DNA from: an uncultured Clostridia bacterium
Lineage (GTDB): Bacteria > Bacillota > Clostridia > Christensenellales > Borkfalkiaceae
Assembly: GCA_947570625.1 (NCBI GenBank)
Contig: CANOUP010000005.1
Span: 18,128-82,127, forward strand
Direction: 5' to 3'
Length of the DNA stretch: 64,000 bases
Each line of letters begins with the position of its first letter. Position 1 is the stretch's first letter. Under the pieces are notes generated by a model that worked only from the letters and a program-made list of their open reading frames with translations, made no database searches and was not told the origin of the DNA. The position numbers were made by a program, and so were the translations under genes. Positions 12,811 to 27,590 of the stretch are shown here, piece by piece.

Positions 12811-12850
12811 AAAAAAACCTGTTGCTTAAATCGCAATTCTAATAGGGATT
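12811..12850 (-). repeat. Composite intergenic repeat, copy 1 (degenerate palindrome)
   Basis: AAAAAAACCTGTTGCTT, then a variable arm, then TTCTAATAGGGATT. It pairs as an inverted repeat with 13738-13776. Immediately inward the sequence TTAAAAAACTAAAT matches the segment beside the copy at 26973 in inverse orientation. Confidence 0.65.
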
Positions 12851-12891
12851 AAAAAACTAAATTATTAAGAGTTGTACTTTTAAGCGAGGAC

Positions 12892-12925
12892 AAAAGCTCT
12901 CGAACATATCGTTCGAGAGCTTTTT
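12892..12925. terminator. Strong terminator, repeat-family member A
   Basis: AAAAGCTCTCGAAC, a five-base loop, GTTCGAGAGCTTTT. Near-identical hairpins occur at 26900-26934 and, less exactly, at 27501-27536, each about 20-80 bases after a cargo gene. It can terminate on both strands and so may also end the large surface-protein transcript. Confidence 0.8.
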
Positions 12926-12971
12926 ACTACAAACTATTTAGAAAGACAAATTGAAATTTATCTTATTATGA

Positions 12972-13538
12972 TTATCTTAACTGTCGCAATTTTTTAGACT
13001 GCCGTACAATGCCGAATATACATAAGCCTAACACTACCGACGAAACCGGAATTAAAATACTGTAAACGATTAAAGCTGTATTGCGTTTTAATGATTCCTT
13101 ATTAACAGACAGACAGCATAAACCATTATCGGCTATAAGCATTTTCTTTGTCGGTTCGTCGGCTATCATTTGCTTAATAACTTGCTCTCGCGCACTCAAC
13201 TCATCTCTTGTTGTGCATTCAACGGTATCTAAATATTCATCTGTATATGTGTTGCCATTGGCATCAATATATTCATATACTATGTGAAAACGCCCGCGCC
13301 ATATTCTCATATAAGGTTCGTCTGGATTTGTTAATCTATAATCATCATAATAGTACTTATAATGAGCATCAACCTCAATGCCGTTTTCGTATAAATACTT
13401 CACTGCTTGTGGGTATTTTAACGCTTGCGGAAACTCACATATTGAAATAATAATCAAAGCACTTGCGATAATGGCAAAAACGCAAGAGATAATCAAAATT
13501 ATTACATACTGTTTTTTACTGTCTTTTTGTGTTTTCAT
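12972..13538 (-). CDS. DUF3592-like two-TM membrane protein, cargo gene
   Basis: 188 residues. A membrane segment at about 12-35, an extracytoplasmic domain with Tyr-rich beta segments (RFHIVYEYIDANGNTYTDEY near 85-105), and a second membrane segment at about 150-175 with a short basic tail. The arrangement resembles DUF3592 proteins, but the match is by eye and weak. The gene is AT-rich compared with its neighbours, and has the same GCGGAG ribosome site and upstream AACAGTAATTTA module as the cargo gene at 27127. It is the only protein gene in the 0.95-kb inverted-repeat unit, which suggests horizontal arrival. Function unknown. Confidence 0.65.
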   Translation of the reverse strand: MKTQKDSKKQYVIILIISCVFAIIASALIIISICEFPQALKYPQAVKYLYENGIEVDAHYKYYYDDYRLTNPDEPYMRIWRGRFHIVYEYIDANGNTYTDEYLDTVECTTRDELSAREQVIKQMIADEPTKKMLIADNGLCCLSVNKESLKRNTALIVYSILIPVSSVVLGLCIFGIVRQSKKLRQLR

Positions 13539-13573
13539 TTAATCTCCGCTAAATTACTGTTTATCGTAGTTTC

Positions 13574-13602
13574 ATAATATCACGAAAAATGAAAGAACGC
13601 AA
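13574..13602 (-). promoter_or_regulatory. Cargo-module promoter (unit at 12.8-13.8 kb)
   Basis: Minus strand TTGCGT, 17-base spacer, TATTAT, followed by ACGATAAACAGTAATTTAGCGGAG before the ATG at 13538. The same downstream segment follows the promoters at 25519 and 27061. Confidence 0.6.
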
Positions 13603-13641
13603 CTGATTGAATTTTGCGGGAAATATAAAAAATATCTATAT

Positions 13642-13661
13642 CTCACTAGGCTACGAATAGC
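13642..13661 (-). other. oriT-like hairpin plus TAGTGAG
   Basis: On the minus strand GCTA-TTCG-TAGC is followed by CTAGTGAG and ATATAGATAT. The same layout, GTAGCCTAGTGAGATAT, occurs at 24768-24784 beside the MobV relaxase gene. MobV-type nic sites have the form TAGTG(T/A)G after a hairpin. No cleavage site is proved; the sequence match between the two places is direct. Confidence 0.5.
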
Positions 13662-13737
13662 ATAGTCGTCCACGAAAAAAAGTACAGAAAAGGCACAGCT
13701 TAACGCTATGCCTAAATCTTTTATTTGCGTCTTATTA

Positions 13738-13776
13738 AATTCCCTATGGGAATTACGGTAAAGCAACAGGTTTTTT
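13738..13776 (+). repeat. Composite intergenic repeat, copy 2
   Basis: AATTCCCTATGGGAATT, then ACGGTAAAGCAACAGG and TTTTTT. The palindrome TTCCCTATGGGAA spans 13740-13752. It is inverted relative to copy 1 and ends three bases before the stop codon of the rsmF-like gene. Confidence 0.75.
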
Positions 13777-21042: not shown

Positions 21043-21046
21043 ATAA

Positions 21047-21085
21047 ATACCCCCGCGCTTTTTACCGTAGTTCCCATAGGGAATT
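21047..21085 (-). repeat. Composite intergenic repeat, copy 3 (left edge of mobile region)
   Basis: ATACCCCCGCGC, twelve variable bases, then TTCCCATAGGGAATT. The outer 12 and inner 15 bases are identical, in inverse orientation, to the copy at 26973-27010. It starts five bases after the ATPase stop codon. Confidence 0.8.
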
Positions 21086-21113
21086 TTAGGTAAGCCGCAG
21101 GTGAACGAGAATT

Positions 21114-21140
21114 AGGCGTGGCGTGAAGCCACGCCTTTTC
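21114..21140 (+). terminator. Intrinsic terminator after the P-type ATPase
   Basis: AGGCGTGGC-GTGAA-GCCACGCCT followed by TTTCTCTTG on the plus strand. It sits between the ATPase and the convergent recombinase gene. Confidence 0.8.
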
Positions 21141-21161
21141 TCTTGTCTTGTTTTAGTTGCT

Positions 21162-22826
21162 TTAATTGTTGTAGTCGTCATCGAAGAACGGCGGAACGAT
21201 TGCGCCTACGAAGTTATAGACTATTTCTACCGTTTGTCTGTAATGTCCGTTTACTTTCGTTTTCTCGTGGACGATTACCTTGTCAATGAACGAACGCAGA
21301 ATTTCGGGCGTGAGTTCTTCAAAATTGCTGTACTTGTAGATGAGTAGCATAAAGTCGAGAATTTTATCGTCTTGCGCTTTGGCTTTCTCTATTTCAGCTT
21401 TCAAAGTCTTAACCCGCTCTTTCAGCGTGGCTTGCTCGGCTTCGTATGTATCGCTCATTTTCAAATACCGTTCTTCCGAGATTTTACCCGTAACCTTATC
21501 TTCGTATAGGCTCTCTATAATCTTGTCGAGCTTGTCTATGCGTTCTTCCGAAGTTTCTATTTCGCGTAGGTTCTCTTTGAGTTCCTTTTTCGTTTTCGCT
21601 TCGGCGTCCTTGCGTAAGGTCTGTAAAAATTCTTCGTTGTGGTTCTTGGCAAAGTGGATTGTGCGCCGCAAATCGTCCTGTATGATTGCCGTTACCGCTT
21701 TCACGGTTATTTGGTGTGAGCCACAAATGCGCTTCTTCTGCTTACGGTAAGTAGAGCAGTTAAAGTATTCCGCTTGCTTCATAGTAGTACACCTGCAAAG
21801 ATACATTTTCTTTCCGCAGTCAGCACAGTACAGCATTCCCGACAGCGGACTCATTTCGCCCATATCGGTAGGACGGCGTTTGTTTTGCCGTATCTTCTGA
21901 ACGGTGTCGAAAGTCTGCTTGTCTATGATTGCTTCCTGCGTGTTCTCGAAAACTACCCAATCTTCTTTCGGTACATCAATGCGCCGTTTCGATTTGTATG
22001 ACTTTTTGTATGTCTTGAAGTTTACCGTATGCCCAAGATAACTGACATCTTCCAATATGTGTGCTATGGAATTTTGCGACCATATATTTGAGCAATCGTT
22101 AATCTTTAACGCTGTGGGTAAACCGTTCTTATGGCAATACACAACGGGTGTATCAATGCCGCGTTCGGTCAGTATCCGCGCTATTTGTGTCGGACCGTAA
22201 CCTTGAATACAGAGTTTGAAAATTTCTCTCACGATTTCCGCACCTTTCTCGTCTATAATCCATTTCTCTTTATCTTCGGGACTTTTCATATAGCCGAGCG
22301 GCGGTATGTAAGAAATGTGCTTGCCCGAATTGCCTTTGGCACGGACAACTGCCTTGATTTTCTTACTGCAATCTTTGGCGTACATTTCGTTGAGTATGTT
22401 CTTGAACGGTGTAATATCGTCGTCGGGATTGGTTTCGCTGTCCACTTGGTCGTAGATTGCTATAAACCTTACGTCGGCTTCGGCAAGATAATACTTGGTG
22501 TAATAGCCTACAAGAATGTGATCCCTGCCGAATCTCGACATATCCTTGACGATAACTGTAGATATTTTACCGTTGTCCACGTCGTCCATCATACGCTTGA
22601 AGTCGGGGCGGTCAAAGTTGCTTCCCGAATATCCGTCGTCAACATAAAATCTAACGTTGCGCAAACGGTTTTCGTCCGCATACTTTTGTAACAGCATTTT
22701 CTGATTACGGATACTGTTGGAATCGCCGTCCAAATCGTCGTCGCAGGACAGTCTGCAATAGAGAGCCGTCCATTGTTCTTCTGCACTTTTTACTTTCTTA
22801 TATTTAATTGTCGGTTGCAAATTCAT
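21162..22826 (-). CDS. Large serine recombinase (TnpX/Tn4451-like)
   Basis: 554 residues. The N-terminal resolvase domain has the catalytic serine S27 in YCRLSCDDD, then DDGYSGSNFDRPDF and SRFGRDH with the conserved arginines. A recombinase domain follows, then a zinc ribbon (CADCGKKM with CGS further on), a long coiled coil at about 400-480 and a C-terminal tail. This is the layout of large serine integrases of gut mobile elements, which integrate and excise circular DNA without host factors. The TnpW-like gene directly upstream overlaps its ATG by four bases, as is common in this family. It lies at the left end of the mobile region, facing the element edge. Confidence 0.93.
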   Translation of the reverse strand: MNLQPTIKYKKVKSAEEQWTALYCRLSCDDDLDGDSNSIRNQKMLLQKYADENRLRNVRFYVDDGYSGSNFDRPDFKRMMDDVDNGKISTVIVKDMSRFGRDHILVGYYTKYYLAEADVRFIAIYDQVDSETNPDDDITPFKNILNEMYAKDCSKKIKAVVRAKGNSGKHISYIPPLGYMKSPEDKEKWIIDEKGAEIVREIFKLCIQGYGPTQIARILTERGIDTPVVYCHKNGLPTALKINDCSNIWSQNSIAHILEDVSYLGHTVNFKTYKKSYKSKRRIDVPKEDWVVFENTQEAIIDKQTFDTVQKIRQNKRRPTDMGEMSPLSGMLYCADCGKKMYLCRCTTMKQAEYFNCSTYRKQKKRICGSHQITVKAVTAIIQDDLRRTIHFAKNHNEEFLQTLRKDAEAKTKKELKENLREIETSEERIDKLDKIIESLYEDKVTGKISEERYLKMSDTYEAEQATLKERVKTLKAEIEKAKAQDDKILDFMLLIYKYSNFEELTPEILRSFIDKVIVHEKTKVNGHYRQTVEIVYNFVGAIVPPFFDDDYNN

Positions 22827-23104
22827 TGTTTATTACCTCCCGAATTGCAACTCCCAAGCGATTGCTTATGAGATAACCGAATAGGAATAGACGGTTGCAA
22901 TGCTTCGTCGATATTCCGTTCGATTAGTCTTTTTGTAATGTCAAATGCCGTAGTGTCGGCGTTTGACTTTTCACGGGATATAACGGTATATACCGTGTTC
23001 CCGATAACTTTTTCACGGCTTCTTACAAGCGAGCCGTTCTCTTGTTCGTAGTAGTAAGACAGTAAGTCTGCCTTAGGTGTGGTTGCTCTGTTCGTTTTAA
23101 TAAT
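22823..23104 (-). CDS. TnpW-like small mobile-element protein, apparent non-ATG start
   Basis: An open frame of 93 codons without any ATG, ending in TGA that overlaps the recombinase ATG (ATGA). The product contains VIGNTVYTVISREKSNADTT followed by AFDITKRLIERN, a pattern known from TnpW-family proteins that precede large serine recombinases. AAGGAG stands six bases before ATT-ATT-AAA-ACG, so translation would have to begin at ATT, or the original ATG has mutated. The strong family pattern and coupling make it a real gene or a very recent pseudogene. The function of TnpW is not established. Confidence 0.6.
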   Translation of the reverse strand: MIKTNRATTPKADLLSYYYEQENGSLVRSREKVIGNTVYTVISREKSNADTTAFDITKRLIERNIDEALQPSIPIRLSHKQSLGSCNSGGNKQ

Positions 23105-23187
23105 GGTACTCCTTGTCTGAAATCGGGCGTTTCAAGTTATTTTCTCCCGTCATACAAGAAGAACACATAGTTTGATTTGCTTTTCGG

Positions 23188-23406
23188 TTACTGTCCGTTT
23201 TTTTCTCTTTTAGCGGCTTCTTCTAACAATACTTTATATCCCGCTTCTATAAGACGGACTTTCGTGTAACCGTTCTTTATTAAAAATGCGTTTATTTCTT
23301 CTGCCTGTTTTCTCGGCACGCTCGTCCCCCAAACCAAACTCTTTGCTTTGCGTTCTTCTCTGTGCCGTTCTTCATAGTTCTTATCTTTTTCCGCTCTCGG
23401 TTTCAT
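23188..23406 (-). CDS. Small basic protein, ribbon-helix-helix-like
   Basis: 72 residues, very rich in Lys, Arg and Glu. The central segment GTSVPRKQAEEINAFLIKNG followed by YTKVRLIEAGYKVLL resembles the strand-helix-helix layout of ribbon-helix-helix DNA-binding proteins. Proteins of this type near MobV relaxases often act as relaxosome accessory or copy-control factors, but that role here is inference. It is the gene after the relaxase on the same strand, about 115 bases downstream. Confidence 0.55.
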   Translation of the reverse strand: MKPRAEKDKNYEERHREERKAKSLVWGTSVPRKQAEEINAFLIKNGYTKVRLIEAGYKVLLEEAAKREKNGQ

Positions 23407-23520
23407 AATACCCTCCGTAAATATATGTGTCGTATTGACACGCCTTTTTCTTATTATACGCTTTTATGGGTATCTTGTCAACGGAATCCGATAGAGTAGT
23501 AGAACGGTATTATTGATTTT

Positions 23521-24717
23521 TTACTTCGACCACCAATTCTTTGTAGATTTAACGGGCGGTTTCGGTGCGTTCTTGCGCTCGGTTGCCGTTCGCTTTGCTT
23601 CGTCCAACTTATCCGGTGCATACTCGTTTACGAAAGCTACAAACTCTTTGTACTTCTCTAATTCGGGTATGCGCCGCTCGGCTTTCTGTAATTCGTTGAA
23701 AAGGTTTTCGCGGTCTTTGTCCGTGATTTTCTTTTCTTCTTCGAGCCGTTTATACTCGGCTGTAAGCCCGACAATCATCTTTCGTAACTTTGTAGGCGAT
23801 AAAGGGAGTTCGCCGCTCAATGCTTCGTGAAAAGCGTCTAAATATCCCTGCAACGGTTTCAATTCTTCCAACGCTTTATCTCTCGTCGCAACGGCTGTTT
23901 GCGCTTCTTGTATTACTTCTTCGGCGTGGACTTTTTCTTCTTCGAGACTTGCAAGCTCGGCTTCCTGTTTTGCCTTTTCGTATTGGTACTTCGTCGTGTG
24001 CTTTTTGTTACTTCCGACTTCGCCGCGATCCAAACCGTAGTGAACGCTTATCCGCTCATAAAAGCTGTCTTGCAAATTTCCGTAAGATAGCTGACCGCCG
24101 CGCTCACTCCAAAAGTCCGAACTGCACAGTTTCGGCTGTTCCAACGGAACGTACTCATAAATGCTTTTGCCGTGTTCGTCTTTCTTCTGAATAGGCGAGC
24201 CTTTTTCGTTCCGCAATACTTTTCCGTCTGCACCTTTCTCATAGACTTTCTTTTTGGCAGTGTCCACGATTGGTATGTAGTAGAGCTGTAAGTGTGGCGT
24301 TGTTTCATCCAAATGGATTACGGCGGACAATATGTTTTTGTCCGTTCCTTTATAGCCGATTTCTTGCAACGCAAACTCGTAACAACGATTGAAAAACTCC
24401 ATTACCGCATACGGCGTTTCTTCGCCTTTCTTCCAACCGAGCCGTTCGAAGAACGCCGTATCCGAAGTGATAATCATACCCTCGAAAGCAACGGATTTTT
24501 TCTTCTCCCGGAAGGTTGCGTTTAAGTCTTTCATTGTCTTTTTCCATTGAGCAGTAAGACCGCCTTCCGACTTCTTGAAATAGAGATTGAGCGGCGTGCG
24601 CTCGTCGTCTATATCTTCGTTGCGGTGGTGTTTACTCGTGCGTTCCGTTTCGCCGCCAATCTTTCCTGAACTACCTTTATTAAATTGTTCTATTCTGACT
24701 ACCTGATAACTTATAAT
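23521..24717 (-). CDS. MobV-family relaxase; start codon non-canonical or lost
   Basis: The frame from 24534 (ATG) encodes 337 residues, but the reading frame stays open to 24717 and there encodes SYQVVRIEQFNKGSSGKIGG and then SKHHRNEDIDDERTPLNLYF, the N-terminal MobV/Pre motif that holds the likely catalytic His. A GGAGGAAC ribosome site stands just upstream of ATT-ATA-AGT-TAT. The functional protein should therefore be about 397 residues and start at ATT or ATA. HLDETTPHLQLYYIPI (metal-binding HxDExTPHxH-like region) and a long C-terminal coiled coil follow. MobV proteins nick oriT and lead the strand into a recipient. Either a rare start is used or the gene is newly damaged. Confidence 0.8.
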   Translation of the reverse strand: MISYQVVRIEQFNKGSSGKIGGETERTSKHHRNEDIDDERTPLNLYFKKSEGGLTAQWKKTMKDLNATFREKKKSVAFEGMIITSDTAFFERLGWKKGEETPYAVMEFFNRCYEFALQEIGYKGTDKNILSAVIHLDETTPHLQLYYIPIVDTAKKKVYEKGADGKVLRNEKGSPIQKKDEHGKSIYEYVPLEQPKLCSSDFWSERGGQLSYGNLQDSFYERISVHYGLDRGEVGSNKKHTTKYQYEKAKQEAELASLEEEKVHAEEVIQEAQTAVATRDKALEELKPLQGYLDAFHEALSGELPLSPTKLRKMIVGLTAEYKRLEEEKKITDKDRENLFNELQKAERRIPELEKYKEFVAFVNEYAPDKLDEAKRTATERKNAPKPPVKSTKNWWSK

Positions 24718-24759
24718 TTTGTTCCTCCTGCAATAATTGCCCCCTGCAAGGGCGAACTT

Positions 24760-24781
24760 GGCTACTTGTAGCCTAGTGAGA
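24760..24781 (+). other. Candidate oriT of the MobV relaxase
   Basis: GGCTAC-TT-GTAGCC hairpin (24760-24773) followed by TAGTGAG (24774-24780), about 45 bases upstream of the relaxase frame. The layout fits MobV nic regions. A closely related copy lies at 13642-13661. Confidence 0.55.
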
Positions 24782-24784
24782 TAT

Positions 24785-25518
24785 GGATATACTCTGCATA
24801 TCCCGTTTTGTCCGTCCGAGCAGTAGTGTTTTGATTTCGTACTGTCTTGTGATTTTGCTTGCCGATTAAGGCGGTCTGATTGTCATTGAGTTTACCTCCG
24901 AATTGTTAGTTTATATCTTCGTCCACGCAAGAAAGAGTGGAATGGATACCGTAAAAAGGACACAAAAAAGCCGCTGATACTTTCAACGTAATCACCGACT
25001 TCTAACCGTATTTAGCAACTTCTCATTGCTCTATGGTGGTTAGCCATTCTATTGAATTGTAAGATTGTTATTAACTCAAAAGATACCTCGATTATAGAAA
25101 AATTTGTAACACAAAATAGACCATCAACGCTATCCGACTTTCACATCCTCATAGGAATCTCGGATAACTCCGGCTGCACGGTTTATTGCCGCAAAACGGT
25201 ACGACAATAAAAGCCTATCACGGCTCACGAATTTTGCGTACACTTAAAAAACCTTCGCTCTATCCGTAAGCTAAGGCAAGGCGGTTTTAACGCCAAAAAT
25301 CTTCCGTATTCAATGAGCAATCGCTCATCGCGGAACACCTCCCCGAAGGGCAAACTACCGCTCGTTACTCTATCGCGGTACAGTATGTATTATATCATAG
25401 ACTATAAATCGGTGCAATATGTTCACCGCCCATAAACGGACGGTGAAAAAAGTTTTTATGACTTTTTTTGTCGAAACTGGAATTGGGCAGTATGTTATTA
25501 GTGCTGTTATATATCCGC
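24785..25518. other. Non-coding stretch of the mobile region
   Basis: About 730 bases with no convincing gene on either strand. It holds several short hairpins. One minus-strand micro-frame of 13 codons (ATG at 25333, product MSDCSLNTEDFWR) follows a GGGAGG ribosome-site-like sequence and overlaps an ATGAGCGATTGCTCAT palindrome. It may be a leader peptide, an untranslated leader of the relaxase operon, or remains of an older insertion. I cannot assign a known RNA family. Confidence 0.4.
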
Positions 25519-25547
25519 TTGTTTTTTCGCGTCCGATATGATATAAT
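25519..25547 (+). promoter_or_regulatory. Cargo-module promoter (methyltransferase)
   Basis: TTGTTT, 17-base spacer, TATAAT, then ACGATAAACAGTAATTTGAGGAAATGACGTG. This is the same segment as in front of the genes at 12972 and 27127. Confidence 0.65.
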
Positions 25548-25581
25548 GCTTGTACGATAAACAGTAATTTGAGGAAATGAC

Positions 25582-26187
25582 GTGAAAAACAAAACCGAAG
25601 AATCACGAGTTGCGTACAATAAAATAGCATCTGAATATGATACTTCGAAAGAAGGACAATATACCAGATTTCATATTAAAGAACTATCTAATACAATAGA
25701 TTTGAACGAAGGCGATATCGTTCTTGATGTTGCATGTGGAAATGGAACTCTGTTGAGGGAATTATCGAAGAGAGCAAAAATTCAAGCAAATGGAATAGAT
25801 ATATCAGAGAATATGATACTTGCCGCAAAAATGCGTTATTCCGATATGAATTTTGAGGTAAAGCCATGTTATCCACTTGAATGGAGCAATGAAAGTATTA
25901 ATATTATTACGATATGTTGTGCATTTCATCATTTTGATAATCCGCAGGGATTTGTAAATGAATGTAAAAGAGTTTTAAAGAAAGACGGTACAGTGTATAT
26001 AGCTGAACCTAACTTTGGAGCTATACTTAGGTTTTTTGCAAATAAATTTTGGTTTCCCTTTTCAAAAAGTGGAGATGTGAGAGTATACAGCCCAAAAGAG
26101 TTAGAGAGATTTTTTTTTAATTCCGGATTTGAAACAGTACAGGTTTATAGAAAAGATATAGGCGTGTTTCTTAAAGCTAAAAAGTAA
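25582..26187 (+). CDS. Class I SAM-dependent methyltransferase, cargo gene
   Basis: 201 residues from a GTG start; the only nearby ATG runs straight into a stop. The SAM motif I is VLDVACGNGTLL at about 47-58, with GIDISENM near 72 and AFHHFDNPQGFVNE near 113, as in the UbiE/Methyltransf_11 group. The acceptor is unknown; such stand-alone enzymes include antibiotic-modifying and small-molecule methylases. The gene is strongly AT-rich against the core genome. Its promoter module matches other cargo genes, and its 3' side runs directly into an AAATTTCAATTTAGCGGAG junction with the next gene. Confidence 0.8.
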   Translation: MKNKTEESRVAYNKIASEYDTSKEGQYTRFHIKELSNTIDLNEGDIVLDVACGNGTLLRELSKRAKIQANGIDISENMILAAKMRYSDMNFEVKPCYPLEWSNESINIITICCAFHHFDNPQGFVNECKRVLKKDGTVYIAEPNFGAILRFFANKFWFPFSKSGDVRVYSPKELERFFFNSGFETVQVYRKDIGVFLKAKK

Positions 26188-26220
26188 CAACAAATTTCAA
26201 TTTAGCGGAGTAACGCAAAT
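26188..26220 (+). repeat. Cargo-gene junction AAATTTCAATTTAGCGGAG
   Basis: Between the methyltransferase and nucleotidyltransferase genes, the motif AAATTTCAATTTA that follows other cargo genes is fused directly to the AATTTAGCGGAG ribosome-site motif that precedes them. It lacks the terminator, palindrome and promoter found at the other junctions. Confidence 0.55.
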
Positions 26221-26883
26221 ATGATAGATATAAAAACTTGGATTAAGGATTTTACTGAGAAAGTCGAGCAAACCTTTGCTAATCGCGTGTGGTTTATCGG
26301 CTTGCAAGGTAGTTACGGCAGAGATGAAGCAACCGCAACGAGCGATATAGATGTGGTTGTTATTCTCGACGAGTTGAGGGTGAACGACTTAAAAACTTAT
26401 AGAGATATGCTCGACACTTTACCGAACAGGGATTTGATTTGCGGATTTATTTCGGGCAAAGCCGAGCTTCTGAATTGGGAAGCAAGCGACTTGTTCCAAT
26501 TCTATTACGATACTACGCCGATAAAAGGAACGCTCGATTCGCTTTTAGATAGGGTAGATAAGCAAGCCGTTAAACGTGCTATACGAATTGGCGCGTGTAA
26601 CATATACCACGCTTGCGTTCATAATTTCGTTCACGAGAAAAGCGATGATATACTACGCTCATTGTATAAGTCGGCAGTCTTTGTTATTCAAGCGGTGTGG
26701 TTTTATGAAACGGGCAAATATATCAAATCAAAGGCTGAATTGCAAAAAGCAATCAATCCACCGTCTGCCGTGCTTACAACCGCCCAAGAGTTGAAGAATG
26801 ATGCAAAAGTGAAGTTGGAGGAAATGTCTGAGTTGCTACTGAATTGGGCAAAAACGATTATCGTTGGGTATAAAGAAAGATAA
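26221..26883 (+). CDS. Nucleotidyltransferase (ANT/MNT-like), cargo gene
   Basis: 220 residues with a pol-beta-type nucleotidyltransferase motif: G30-S31 in LQGSYGRDE followed by D42-x-D44 in SDIDVVVIL. The remaining 150 residues are helical. Family members transfer AMP to aminoglycosides or to a partner toxin in MNT-HEPN pairs. Neither an adjacent HEPN toxin nor a clear drug-binding signature is visible, so the target is open. The gene is 33 bases after the methyltransferase and has its own GCGGAG ribosome site. It is followed by a strong terminator that overlaps the shared 3' module. Confidence 0.75.
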   Translation: MIDIKTWIKDFTEKVEQTFANRVWFIGLQGSYGRDEATATSDIDVVVILDELRVNDLKTYRDMLDTLPNRDLICGFISGKAELLNWEASDLFQFYYDTTPIKGTLDSLLDRVDKQAVKRAIRIGACNIYHACVHNFVHEKSDDILRSLYKSAVFVIQAVWFYETGKYIKSKAELQKAINPPSAVLTTAQELKNDAKVKLEEMSELLLNWAKTIIVGYKER

Positions 26884-26899
26884 ATTTCGATTTATAGTT

Positions 26900-26934
26900 A
26901 AAAGCTCTCGAACAAATTGTTCGAGAGCTTTTTT
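26900..26934. terminator. Strong terminator, repeat-family member B
   Basis: AAAAGCTCTCGAAC-AAATT-GTTCGAGAGCTTTTTT, about 17 bases after the nucleotidyltransferase stop. The stem is identical to 12892-12925. Confidence 0.85.
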
Positions 26935-26972
26935 CTCGCTTGAAAGTGCAACTCTTAAAAATTTAGTTTTTT

Positions 26973-27010
26973 AATTCCCTATGGGAAGTGCGCTTTAGGC
27001 GCGGGGGTAT
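26973..27010 (+). repeat. Composite intergenic repeat, copy 4
   Basis: AATTCCCTATGGGAA, then GTGCGCTTTAG and GCGCGGGGGTAT. Palindrome at 26975-26987. It is inverted relative to 21047-21085 and direct relative to 27554-27590. Confidence 0.8.
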
Positions 27011-27060
27011 TATGAAACGAAGGCTTCATAAATGCAGTGAGCCGCACTATCGTATACTTC

Positions 27061-27090
27061 TTGTTTTTTTTGCGCTAAATATGATAGAAT
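27061..27090 (+). promoter_or_regulatory. Cargo-module promoter (27127 gene)
   Basis: TTGTTT, 18-base spacer, TAGAAT, then GGTAAACAATAATTTAGCGGAG before the ATG at 27127. Confidence 0.6.
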
Positions 27091-27126
27091 ATTATGCGGT
27101 AAACAATAATTTAGCGGAGAATAAAA

Positions 27127-27435
27127 ATGATAAACAATAATGACCAACCCAAGAACAATTATGTTTTGATTAAACTGAAAAAGAAATGGAAAAAGACAGA
27201 GCGAATTACTTTGGCTATTGATTTGGTATTATTGTTTGCTTTTATATTGCTTTCAATTGTAAAACATCTTACAGATTTTAATTCAATAGCATTTTTTGTT
27301 ATGGTCGTTATATTCGGTGTTATCATGCTTGCAGATTTAGTTATGCTGTTTATTAGTTGGTACAAACTTTATCGCATAAATAGTCTGATTGCGGAACAGG
27401 AAAATGAAATCATTGATAGCAACAATGATATTTAA
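27127..27435 (+). CDS. Small two-TM membrane protein, cargo gene
   Basis: 102 residues with two membrane segments at about 26-46 and 52-78, a basic N-terminus (KLKKKWKKTER) and a short acidic C-terminal tail. No family recognised. Start chosen for the GCGGAG ribosome site 11 bases upstream. The gene is AT-rich and is framed by the shared promoter/RBS module on one side and by the AAATTTCAATTTA, terminator and palindrome modules on the other, the same unit architecture as at 12.8-13.8 kb. Confidence 0.6.
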   Translation: MINNNDQPKNNYVLIKLKKKWKKTERITLAIDLVLLFAFILLSIVKHLTDFNSIAFFVMVVIFGVIMLADLVMLFISWYKLYRINSLIAEQENEIIDSNNDI

Positions 27436-27500
27436 CCGAAGGCGTTATTATATATGAAAGTACCGTAAATTTCAATTTATCCTTCTAAACAATTTGTAAT

Positions 27501-27536
27501 AAAAAGCTCCCGGACAATTTTGTCCGAGAGCTTTTT
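27501..27536. terminator. Terminator, repeat-family member C
   Basis: AAAAAGCTCCCGGACA-ATTT-TGTCCGAGAGCTTTTT, one mismatch in the stem. It follows AAATTTCAATTTATCC and TTCTAAAC, which also flank the family A copy. Confidence 0.8.
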
Positions 27537-27553
27537 ATTGTTGTTCGATTTTA

Positions 27554-27590
27554 TATTCCCTATGGGAAGCGCGCTTAACCGCGCAGGGCT
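27554..27590 (+). repeat. Composite intergenic repeat, copy 5
   Basis: TTCCCTATGGGAA (27556-27568), then GCGCGCTTAACCGCGC and AGGGCTTTTTC. It ends within a few bases of the gyrA stop codon. Confidence 0.75.

Follow-up and report, generated by a model that had tools for sequence, protein, structure and literature searches.

The window analyzed here is a stretch of 64,000 nucleotides (nt) from an uncultured Clostridia bacterium (assembly GCA_947570625.1, contig CANOUP010000005.1, positions 18,128 to 82,127) and forms part of contig C5 of the source genome, which amounts to 1.72 Mb in 38 contigs. Within it, two kinds of site of 17 nt each, an attI-like site (CGATAAACAGTAATTTA) and an attC-like site (CGATAAATTTCAATTTA), delimit one-gene units of what appears to be an integron-like gene-cassette system, and three units can be drawn around these sites: unit A with two cassettes, and units B and C with one cassette each.

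Organization of the window

The 5' module of the system (GATAAACARTAATTTR, up to two mismatches) has three matches in the window, at 13550-13566 (minus strand, unit C), 25555-25571 (plus strand, unit A) and 27097-27113 (plus strand, unit B), where 0.19 are expected. The 3' module (TAAATTTCRATTTR, up to one mismatch) has four, at 12947-12963 (minus strand, unit C), 26188-26204 and 26878-26894 (unit A) and 27463-27479 (unit B), the last three on the plus strand, where 0.45 are expected; in both cases 0 of 100 shuffles equaled the count. The modules that a preliminary description had reported as common to the genes at 12972, 25582 and 27127 are thus present and above chance. Hairpin terminators, in the form of inverted repeats, lie 3' of the genes at 12972, 26221 and 27127, and the direct fusion of a 3' motif to a 5' motif is seen as the junction AAATTTCAATTTAGCGGAG at 26192-26210. 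Other details needed correction. The GCGGAG-type ribosome site is lacking at the gene at 25582, whose site reads AATTTGAGGAAATG; the 3' motif does follow the three genes, with letters that vary (the copy after 26221 is AAATTTCGATTTA, and the copy after 12972 ends in G); and the palindrome ATTCCCTATGGGAA is exact after 26221 and 27127 and present after 12972 only as the degenerate copy AATCCCTATTAGAATT.

Unit A occupies 21059..26998 on the plus strand, from its left end TTTTTACCGTAGTTCCCATAGGGAAT to its right end ATTCCCTATGGGAAGTGCGCTTTA, and lies between two arms of a host terminator, AATACCCCCGCGC at 21046..21058 and GCGCGGGGGTATT at 26999..27011 (both on the plus strand), the first of which is the exact reverse complement of the second. 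On the minus strand it encodes a large serine recombinase (LSR) of 554 amino acids (aa) at 21162..22826, whose stop codon is separated by 78 nt from the palindrome at the unit end and which is the probable mobiliser of the units, and a MobV-type relaxase at 23521..24534, which matches Pfam Mob_Pre above the cut-off in a longer frame (23524-24882) and reaches 71 bits with the NCBIfam MobV model, under its cut-off of 100. The plus strand carries an oriT-like box of the LSR/MobV element (GGCTACTTGTAGCCTAGTGAGATAT, 24760..24784), a platform promoter at 25519..25547 (-35 box TTGTTT at 25519-25524, -10 box TATAAT at 25542-25547) and the attI-like site CGATAAACAGTAATTTG. The open reading frame (ORF) of the first cassette (25582..26187) encodes a class I S-adenosylmethionine (SAM) methyltransferase-like protein of 201 aa, with matches under the curated cut-offs, and is joined to the next cassette through an attC-like site in the form of an AAATTTCAATTTA-GCGGAG junction. 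The second ORF (26221..26883) encodes a nucleotidyltransferase-like protein of 220 aa, with weak matches under the cut-offs, and takes its stop codon from the TAA of the terminal attC-like site, which a hairpin terminator follows at 26900..26932 (inverted repeat I5).

In unit B, which reads on the plus strand throughout, the attI-like site precedes an ORF of 102 aa at 27127..27435 (a membrane protein by eye, with one weak family match under the cut-off), and the attC-like site is followed at 27498..27568 by a hairpin terminator (27498-27539) and a right-end palindrome (27555-27568) that adjoin the gyrA terminator. Because the promoter region of unit B directly abuts the right host arm of unit A, its left end is taken to be missing or altered. 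Unit C reads on the minus strand at 12828..13760, with the left end towards 13760 and the right end degenerate, between the host terminator arms AAGCAACAGGTTTTTT (12812..12827) and AAAAAACCTGTTGCTT (13761..13776), both read on the minus strand and perfectly complementary over 16 nt. It holds an oriT-like box with three mismatches at 13638..13662, a cassette ORF of 188 aa at 12972..13538 (a membrane protein by eye, without an NCBIfam match) and a hairpin terminator at 12892..12924 (inverted repeat I3); a second copy of this cassette, with 87% DNA identity, lies on contig C19.

Cassettes recur in unrelated contexts

The movement of cassettes can be followed by comparing copies of the same cassette at different loci. 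In 21 cassette pairs from 11 families, the bodies are 81-100% identical in DNA, and in 19 of the 21 both 200-nt flanks fall below 70% identity, mostly at 46-57%. Random upstream pairs average 52% and reach at most 92%, a maximum that arises because two platforms can be alike. The exceptions are the pair L092/L167, which has a common downstream side, and the pair L141/L174, with flanks of 74% and 69%; in the pair L124/L284 the downstream side is truncated. The 21 pairs are not independent, as they fall into 11 families, and one lies within the source genome and one within one other genome. By sequence comparison only, this pattern points to site-specific recombination of the cassettes.

The same cassette can stand behind either kind of site. 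The cassette after the attI-like site in L213 and the one after the attC-like site in L220 are 89% identical, between flanks of 48% and 51%, and a cassette of 146 aa follows attI in L114 and L172 and attC in L127. A 625-nt cassette (199 aa) is 99-100% identical in Pumilibacter muris (L172), P. intestinalis (L202) and a third species (L133), and its neighbors on either side differ among the three. The left half-site travels with its cassette in most copies compared, the exception being a cassette of 252 aa that ends in the CAGT form in L081 and in the TTTC form in L149 and L157, while the letter 3' of AATTTA (G or A) differs among copies and the junctions inside arrays are exact at AATTTA. Finding one cassette behind the two kinds of site in different species, within unrelated DNA, supports the earlier proposal of recombining integron-like cassettes. 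Shared ancestry, which modules confined to these genes or kept in a fixed order would have indicated, does not fit, given the unrelated DNA on both sides of the L213 and L220 copies and the 108 families of cargo described below. Cassettes made of promoterless ORFs are thus almost certainly inserted and reordered exactly at the site, behind a sigma-70-type promoter.

A swap of genes might also come about by ordinary homologous recombination between units with long common 5' and 3' segments, and the ~220 nt upstream and the similar terminator region that the units have in common would allow it. We consider this very improbable, since the array junctions are exact at AATTTA and near-identical cassettes have flanks at chance identity.

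Structure and cargo of the cassettes

Own-genome, same-genus and named-genome loci yielded 79 distinct stretches with a site at either end. The named and unnamed loci have some contigs in common, and cassettes identical both in themselves and in the 40 nt upstream were entered only once. One stretch is without an ORF of at least 40 aa. In each of the other 78, the longest ORF lies on the strand of the site; 71 have their start codon no more than 30 nt from the crossover, and 30 take the TAA of the site itself as stop codon. The median cassette length is 534 nt. At 66 cassette 3' ends conservation amounts to GATAAATTTCAATTTANCG and little else, spanning only ~20 nt. In a logo built from 77 attI platform sites, a spacer of 17 nt separates a -35 box from an extended TATAAT, and TACGATAAACAGTAATTTAgCGGAG comes next; therefore the predicted transcript begins at the attI-like site, which also includes the ribosome site. 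Because some cassettes end in the CAGT form, the two kinds of site are spacer variants and not strictly platform versus cassette sites.

The comparison shows, with high confidence, that a cassette consists of a promoterless ORF with its own ribosome site, beginning at the right half-site AATTTARCGGAG and closing with the left half-site ...CGATAAATTTC or ...CGATAAACAGT, whose TAA often doubles as the stop codon; the cassettes lie downstream of a sigma-70-type promoter with its predicted start point at the first platform site. The placement of the attI-like site at the predicted transcription start, together with the ribosome site it includes, is also what one would expect if the modules were conserved regulatory sequences of vertically inherited operons. 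That account is scarcely credible in view of the many unrelated cargo families, the patchy occurrence and the recurrence of the same genes in different contexts, and the flanks of the cassette pairs already contradict it. A known RNA in the 5' region was also rejected, as no Rfam family was found there in eight loci. At two places (L061, 2734, minus strand; L058, 3533, plus strand) an attI-like site is followed immediately by a hairpin terminator, with no ORF, as in possible empty or non-coding cassettes.

The sites and open-ended cassettes together yield 150 ORFs, which form 108 families at 35% identity, both figures including doubtful ORFs behind terminal sites. Among 106 representatives with usable references, 16 short or doubtful ones were removed by eye, and the remaining 90 were scanned with Pfam. 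GNAT acetyltransferases lead the cargo (PF00583 in 20 of the 90), and small AAA, glyoxalase, NUDIX, pyridoxamine-oxidase-like, hydrolase, GrpB and CAT families have one to three members each, among the 25 of 98 families listed; labels for single cassettes (DJ-1-like, GyrI-like, membrane protein) were given by eye. Defence as a theme of the cargo was rejected, since PADLOC matches are scattered, with at most two of the 90 members per model.

A probable carrier element in host terminators

The terminal palindrome, taken in the preliminary description as part of the 3' module, is part of what is probably a carrier element lying within host terminators, a setting beyond that description's view. 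The units end in TTTACCGTARTTCCCATAGGGAAT and, inverted, TTAAAGCGCACTTCCCATAGGGAAT, and both ends were recovered for 24 units. The host DNA to the left and right of these 24 is complementary, with a mean stem score of 10.2 versus 6.1 for mismatched pairs (0 of 20,000 permutations), and in 14 of the 24 no other arm scores higher than the true partner. The region downstream of gyrA, compared in 30 genomes including the source genome, offers a direct view: a unit end lies within 230 nt in G000 and G067, an attI-like site in L327 and a distant attC-like site in L315 (three mismatches each), and a plain hairpin, by eye, in most of the other genomes, while the contigs of L310, L324 and L325 end within 90 nt. 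In G060 the gyrA terminator is intact, and the matching hairpin in G067 is interrupted in its loop by a unit end. The complementary host arms and this comparison indicate that the units sit inside terminator hairpins.

A box like GGCTACTYGTAGCCTAGTGAGATAT, oriT-like as judged by likeness only, lies between the left end and the promoter, and in 62 of its 80 occurrences in the fetched loci, most of which had been chosen on account of their att sites, attI lies 88-121 nt further on. A mismatch-free box adjoins MobV-type genes in the window and in L382-L386, whereas L387 has a MobV gene and no box within four mismatches, and L388 and L373 have a box and no MobV match; L382-L388 were fetched through their box match, so the new fact is the MobV neighbor, in L382-L387. 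The LSR shows a comparable association with the unit ends. In L400, L401, L403, L407 and L416, whose LSRs are 64-100% identical to that of the window (L401 95%, with one internal stop; L403 70%; L407 73%; L416 64%, partial), a palindrome carrying no more than one mismatch follows the end of the match by 81-174 nt, and in L402 (76% identical) only a three-mismatch palindrome is found, at 256 nt.

The platform probably rides a small mobile element in the loop of host intrinsic terminators, an element derived from an integrative and mobilizable element (IME) with an LSR and a MobV-type relaxase. Its order would be a palindromic left end, the oriT-like box, the promoter, the attI-like site, the cassettes, a terminator and a palindromic right end. 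Since unit A holds an LSR, a relaxase, an oriT-like box and cassettes, it may be a near-complete parent element that would still keep both genes of the parent IME, and the small units may be its derivatives.

Several observations touch this element from the side. A unit in L365 (1158-1931) has both ends and the oriT-like box, no att site, and a small regulator-like gene by eye, so that units may ferry loads other than cassettes. In six genomes (L389, L390, L392-L395), of which one belongs to another family, a left end containing TTCCCATAGGGAATTTAGGTAAGTCGCC coincides with the end of a contig; it is probably a repeated, perhaps autonomous, element. A second group of LSRs, 35-37% identical to that of the window (L422, L423, L424, L426 and L428), has DNA that by eye codes for collagen-like repeats directly past the stop, as if inserting into such genes.

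Occurrence in this and other genomes

The same modules occur on many other contigs of the source genome, several of them within 150 nt of a contig end, as is usual for repeats in short-read assemblies. A 220-nt platform query matches, in whole or part, at least 43 of 121 genomes, 41 from the same genus, counting the source genome, and two from other families within the order; six candidates were scored per genome, which makes these counts lower bounds. The exact site pattern was found in 95 stretches of public prokaryote genomes, assigned to Clostridia, Clostridiales, Eubacteriales, a Christensenella sp., P. muris, P. intestinalis and Anaerocaecibacter muris, in a search that required the exact canonical pattern and so favors clean attI sites. 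NCBI taxonomy places P. muris in Pumilibacteraceae, Clostridia, and we infer that the source genome is related to Pumilibacter. The cassette-cassette junction pattern is present in 31 of 93 same-genus genomes, with no matches for a reversed-pattern control, and the largest array inspected, in P. muris (L374), has three site-bounded segments and four ORFs.

Carriage by phages or plasmids was rejected: two site patterns had no exact match among viral contigs (a phage record collection lay outside the search), and a 70-nt platform query had no match among PLSDB plasmids. The genes upstream of platforms include gyrA, a tRNA methyltransferase and RNase Y, and the upstream ORFs scanned with Pfam (92 of 124) are mostly housekeeping, with PF00239 in three, among the 25 commonest of 176 families, a selection in which a lone PF00589 match could be hidden.

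Candidate recombinases

Tyrosine recombinases (PF00589) were sought in the source genome and eight others. The source genome has eight PF00589 matches in seven genes or fragments and six matches to PF00239, five of them above the cut-off. Among the recombinases parsed, a set to which L249, L254, L258, L259 and L263 do not belong, the XerS-like group of L101 and its kin is the sole one present in all nine genomes, and the Xer found in the host is one XerS-like protein, at 187 bits versus the NCBIfam XerS cut-off of 267. A recombinase encoded beside the arrays was rejected: a profile of five own recombinases, which recovered five positive controls, found no tyrosine recombinase in 5,387 ORFs of 175 fetched loci.

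Three recombinases were put to the integron-integrase model TIGR02249 (cut-off 265 bits) and reached 103 (L234), 58 (L101) and 57 bits (L102), so that no protein tested attains the model, in keeping with the earlier statement that no integron integrase is in view; that no classic attC is visible agrees likewise with the cassette 3' ends, where none was found. These results bear on the idea of divergent true integrons, with an integrase of the IntI family and much reduced attC sites. A single promoter feeding promoterless cassettes in one direction, together with cargo of a similar kind, would suit it, yet scores below the cut-off for all three recombinases and conservation over only ~20 nt at the cassette ends make it very unlikely.

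The case for the XerS-like protein turns on a feature that also escaped the preliminary description, the likeness of the cassette sites to a dif-like palindrome adjoining the host xer gene. This palindrome, ACTTCGTAAAA-GCTGTG-TTTTACGAAGT or a variant (a 9-nt spacer in L240, mismatched arms in L247 and L250), stands just upstream of xer at eight of nine loci (its distance to the first Met is 39-109 nt at the six measured), and it is rare, with 11 matches in 1.94 Mb of fetched, partly redundant DNA, eight of them at xer. Passages of two papers (PMC2731167, PMC5357621) describe XerS and XerH systems as keeping dif beside the recombinase gene, and the xer-adjacent palindrome is a candidate dif. 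Its inner half-site reads TTTTACGAA, versus TTTATCGTA and TTTARCGGA in the cassette sites, with a 6-nt spacer in all. The arms agree with the palindrome at 13 of 22 positions in attI (14 in the A variant) and 12 of 22 in attC, a level reached by 0.17% and 0.66% of background 28-mers, respectively, and by 0.38% and 1.2% of GC-matched ones. With two arms around 6 nt, the sites have the layout of Xer sites, their half-sites resemble those of the palindrome beside xer, and the resemblance is suggestive, not proof, of Xer action on them.

The spacers of the attI-like (CAGTAA) and attC-like (TTTCAA) sites agree only in the AA beside the right arm. In the VGJphi site, as described in part of PMC5357621, four letters that differ on one side restrict the reaction to one recombinase; between attI and attC, the four spacer positions distal to the right arm are the ones that differ, hence we propose a single-strand exchange, which would be completed by replication on the model of VGJphi and CTXphi with XerC. 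That the housekeeping XerS-like tyrosine recombinase carries out cassette exchange is, on this evidence, an evenly balanced proposition.

The principal competitor is a dedicated Xer-like tyrosine integrase, other than classical IntI, that resides in only some genomes or on another mobile element and built the arrays, so that many genomes would now carry arrays and no such enzyme; we regard this as possible and the less probable of the two. Known clusters of attC sites without integrases are a parallel for arrays lacking a dedicated integrase, and the sets of recombinases differ among array genomes. The XerC/D-like L234-type recombinase, found in 19 of 93 genomes, has sites of its own, AATAACTNNNAATTATT, that are similar in layout and also precede ORFs. 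In three of its 13 regions, however, these sites flank alternative genes in inverted orientation, as phase-variable loci do, and they differ from the cassette sites (reverse-complement coordinates: L286, 10475 plus and 13953 minus; L287, 833 plus and 4201 minus; L293, 7160 plus and 9049 minus), although no inverted pair was seen in the other ten; the gene is also absent from the source genome, and the profile search of fetched loci found no such integrase. As first choice for the cassette integrase the L234-type was rejected on the differing and inverted sites and on its absence from the source genome, and it is retained as a rival because of its statistical link with junction genomes. The L102-type, common to several array genomes, was also set aside, with no adjoining attI- or attC-like site within three mismatches, bar one three-mismatch match more than 1 kb off in L102.

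Two further observations concern these recombinases themselves. The inverted AATAACTNNNAATTATT copies look like a phase-variation switch in their own right, with sites akin in layout to the cassette sites, and upstream of the recombinase in L293 lies a divergent gene whose start is TIR-domain-like by eye. Downstream of the L102-type recombinase in L241 and L245, GTGCGCCTAATAAAATAATAGGCG and a nearby partner like its inverse perhaps bound an invertible segment.

The XerS-like recombinase remains our preferred agent, and for the whole reading, an integron-like cassette system on a carrier element exchanged by this host enzyme, we hold somewhat better than even confidence. A number of findings weigh against it. 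The L234-type gene is commoner in genomes with the junction (12 of 19 carriers versus 19 of 74 non-carriers, p = 0.005); the fetched stretch at the xer of Anaerocaecibacter muris (L243) holds no dif-like palindrome, though the species has arrays; and the palindrome of L240 departs from the 6-nt spacer. A mirrored permutation of the attI half-site reaches the dif resemblance in 361 of 20,000 cases, which makes it modest. For the carrier, 22 parsed LSR homologues of at most 60% identity show no palindrome past the stop, and other arrays are without such ends within the match limits or are cut by contig ends.

Relation to known systems

As in integrons, one promoter serves cassettes that all point the same way, lack promoters of their own, mostly hold a single ORF and have a site on either side. 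The cargo of integron cassettes is rich in GNAT and other small accessory enzymes, and such enzymes are in the cassettes here as well. Unlike integrons, none of the three recombinases tested reaches the cut-off of the IntI model, no attC of the R''-L''-L'-R' kind with two box pairs was found at 66 cassette ends, no integrase was found beside the platforms, and many small platforms are scattered in terminators instead of one or few arrays.

Several Xer-based systems come close in other respects. Sites of pdif modules have two arms around a 6-nt spacer, and the genes of such modules lie on plasmids. Parts of one paper (PMC7399989) describe the pdif modules of Acinetobacter as genes bordered by Xer-type sites and thought to be moved by host Xer recombinases. 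The genes studied here are likewise bordered by sites with an Xer-type layout, but these sites repeat in direct orientation, are accompanied by a fixed promoter platform and lie next to chromosomal genes on a carrier element, in a host with one XerS-like protein in place of XerC/XerD, and the plasmid setting is absent (no PLSDB match, chromosomal neighbors). For CTXphi, VGJphi and the gonococcal genetic island (GGI), sections of PMC5357621 report dif-like sites in which just one side of the spacer agrees, leading to exchange by one recombinase. The attI and attC spacers agree on one side only as well; however, those systems are phages or islands entering dif, whereas here the payload is one gene, directed to platform sites instead of the dif-like palindrome (spacer CAGTAA versus GCTGTG). 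As in XerS/difSL, which passages of PMC2731167 describe as linked, a palindrome (the candidate dif) directly adjoins the XerS-like gene at eight of nine loci; the protein here is under the NCBIfam XerS cut-off, and the spacer of the palindrome is mostly 6 nt, in contrast to 11 nt in difSL (PMC5357621, in part). Finally, unit A resembles LSR/MobV IMEs in its serine recombinase at the element end, its relaxase and its oriT-like box (an oriT by likeness), while most units keep only the ends and that box, plus a cassette platform, and would be derivatives at most.

The system would work in an integron-like manner, yet it fails the tests for the integrase and for attC, and it resembles Xer modules without their plasmid setting. 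No description of such a cassette system was found in the open-access full-text literature, with subscription papers and preprints mostly outside that scope. Our interpretation, offered tentatively and at slightly less than even confidence, is that of a second, independently evolved integron, in which the chromosome-dimer-resolution recombinase of one clade of gut Clostridia doubles as the cassette integrase on dif-like sites that coincide with the start point of a strong promoter, and platforms are spread by terminator-nesting, oriT-bearing mini-elements.

Implications

Parts of PMC11641012 present integrons as described chiefly from Gram-negative bacteria. The short DNA signatures identified here allow arrays to be detected, including in the genomes of three named mouse strains, and the driving recombinase is thus directly testable. 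If true, a system of this kind in gut Clostridia, using other sites and a seemingly different enzyme, would mean that the storage and expression of swappable genes arose more than once, and it would explain the spread of small accessory genes among gut species.

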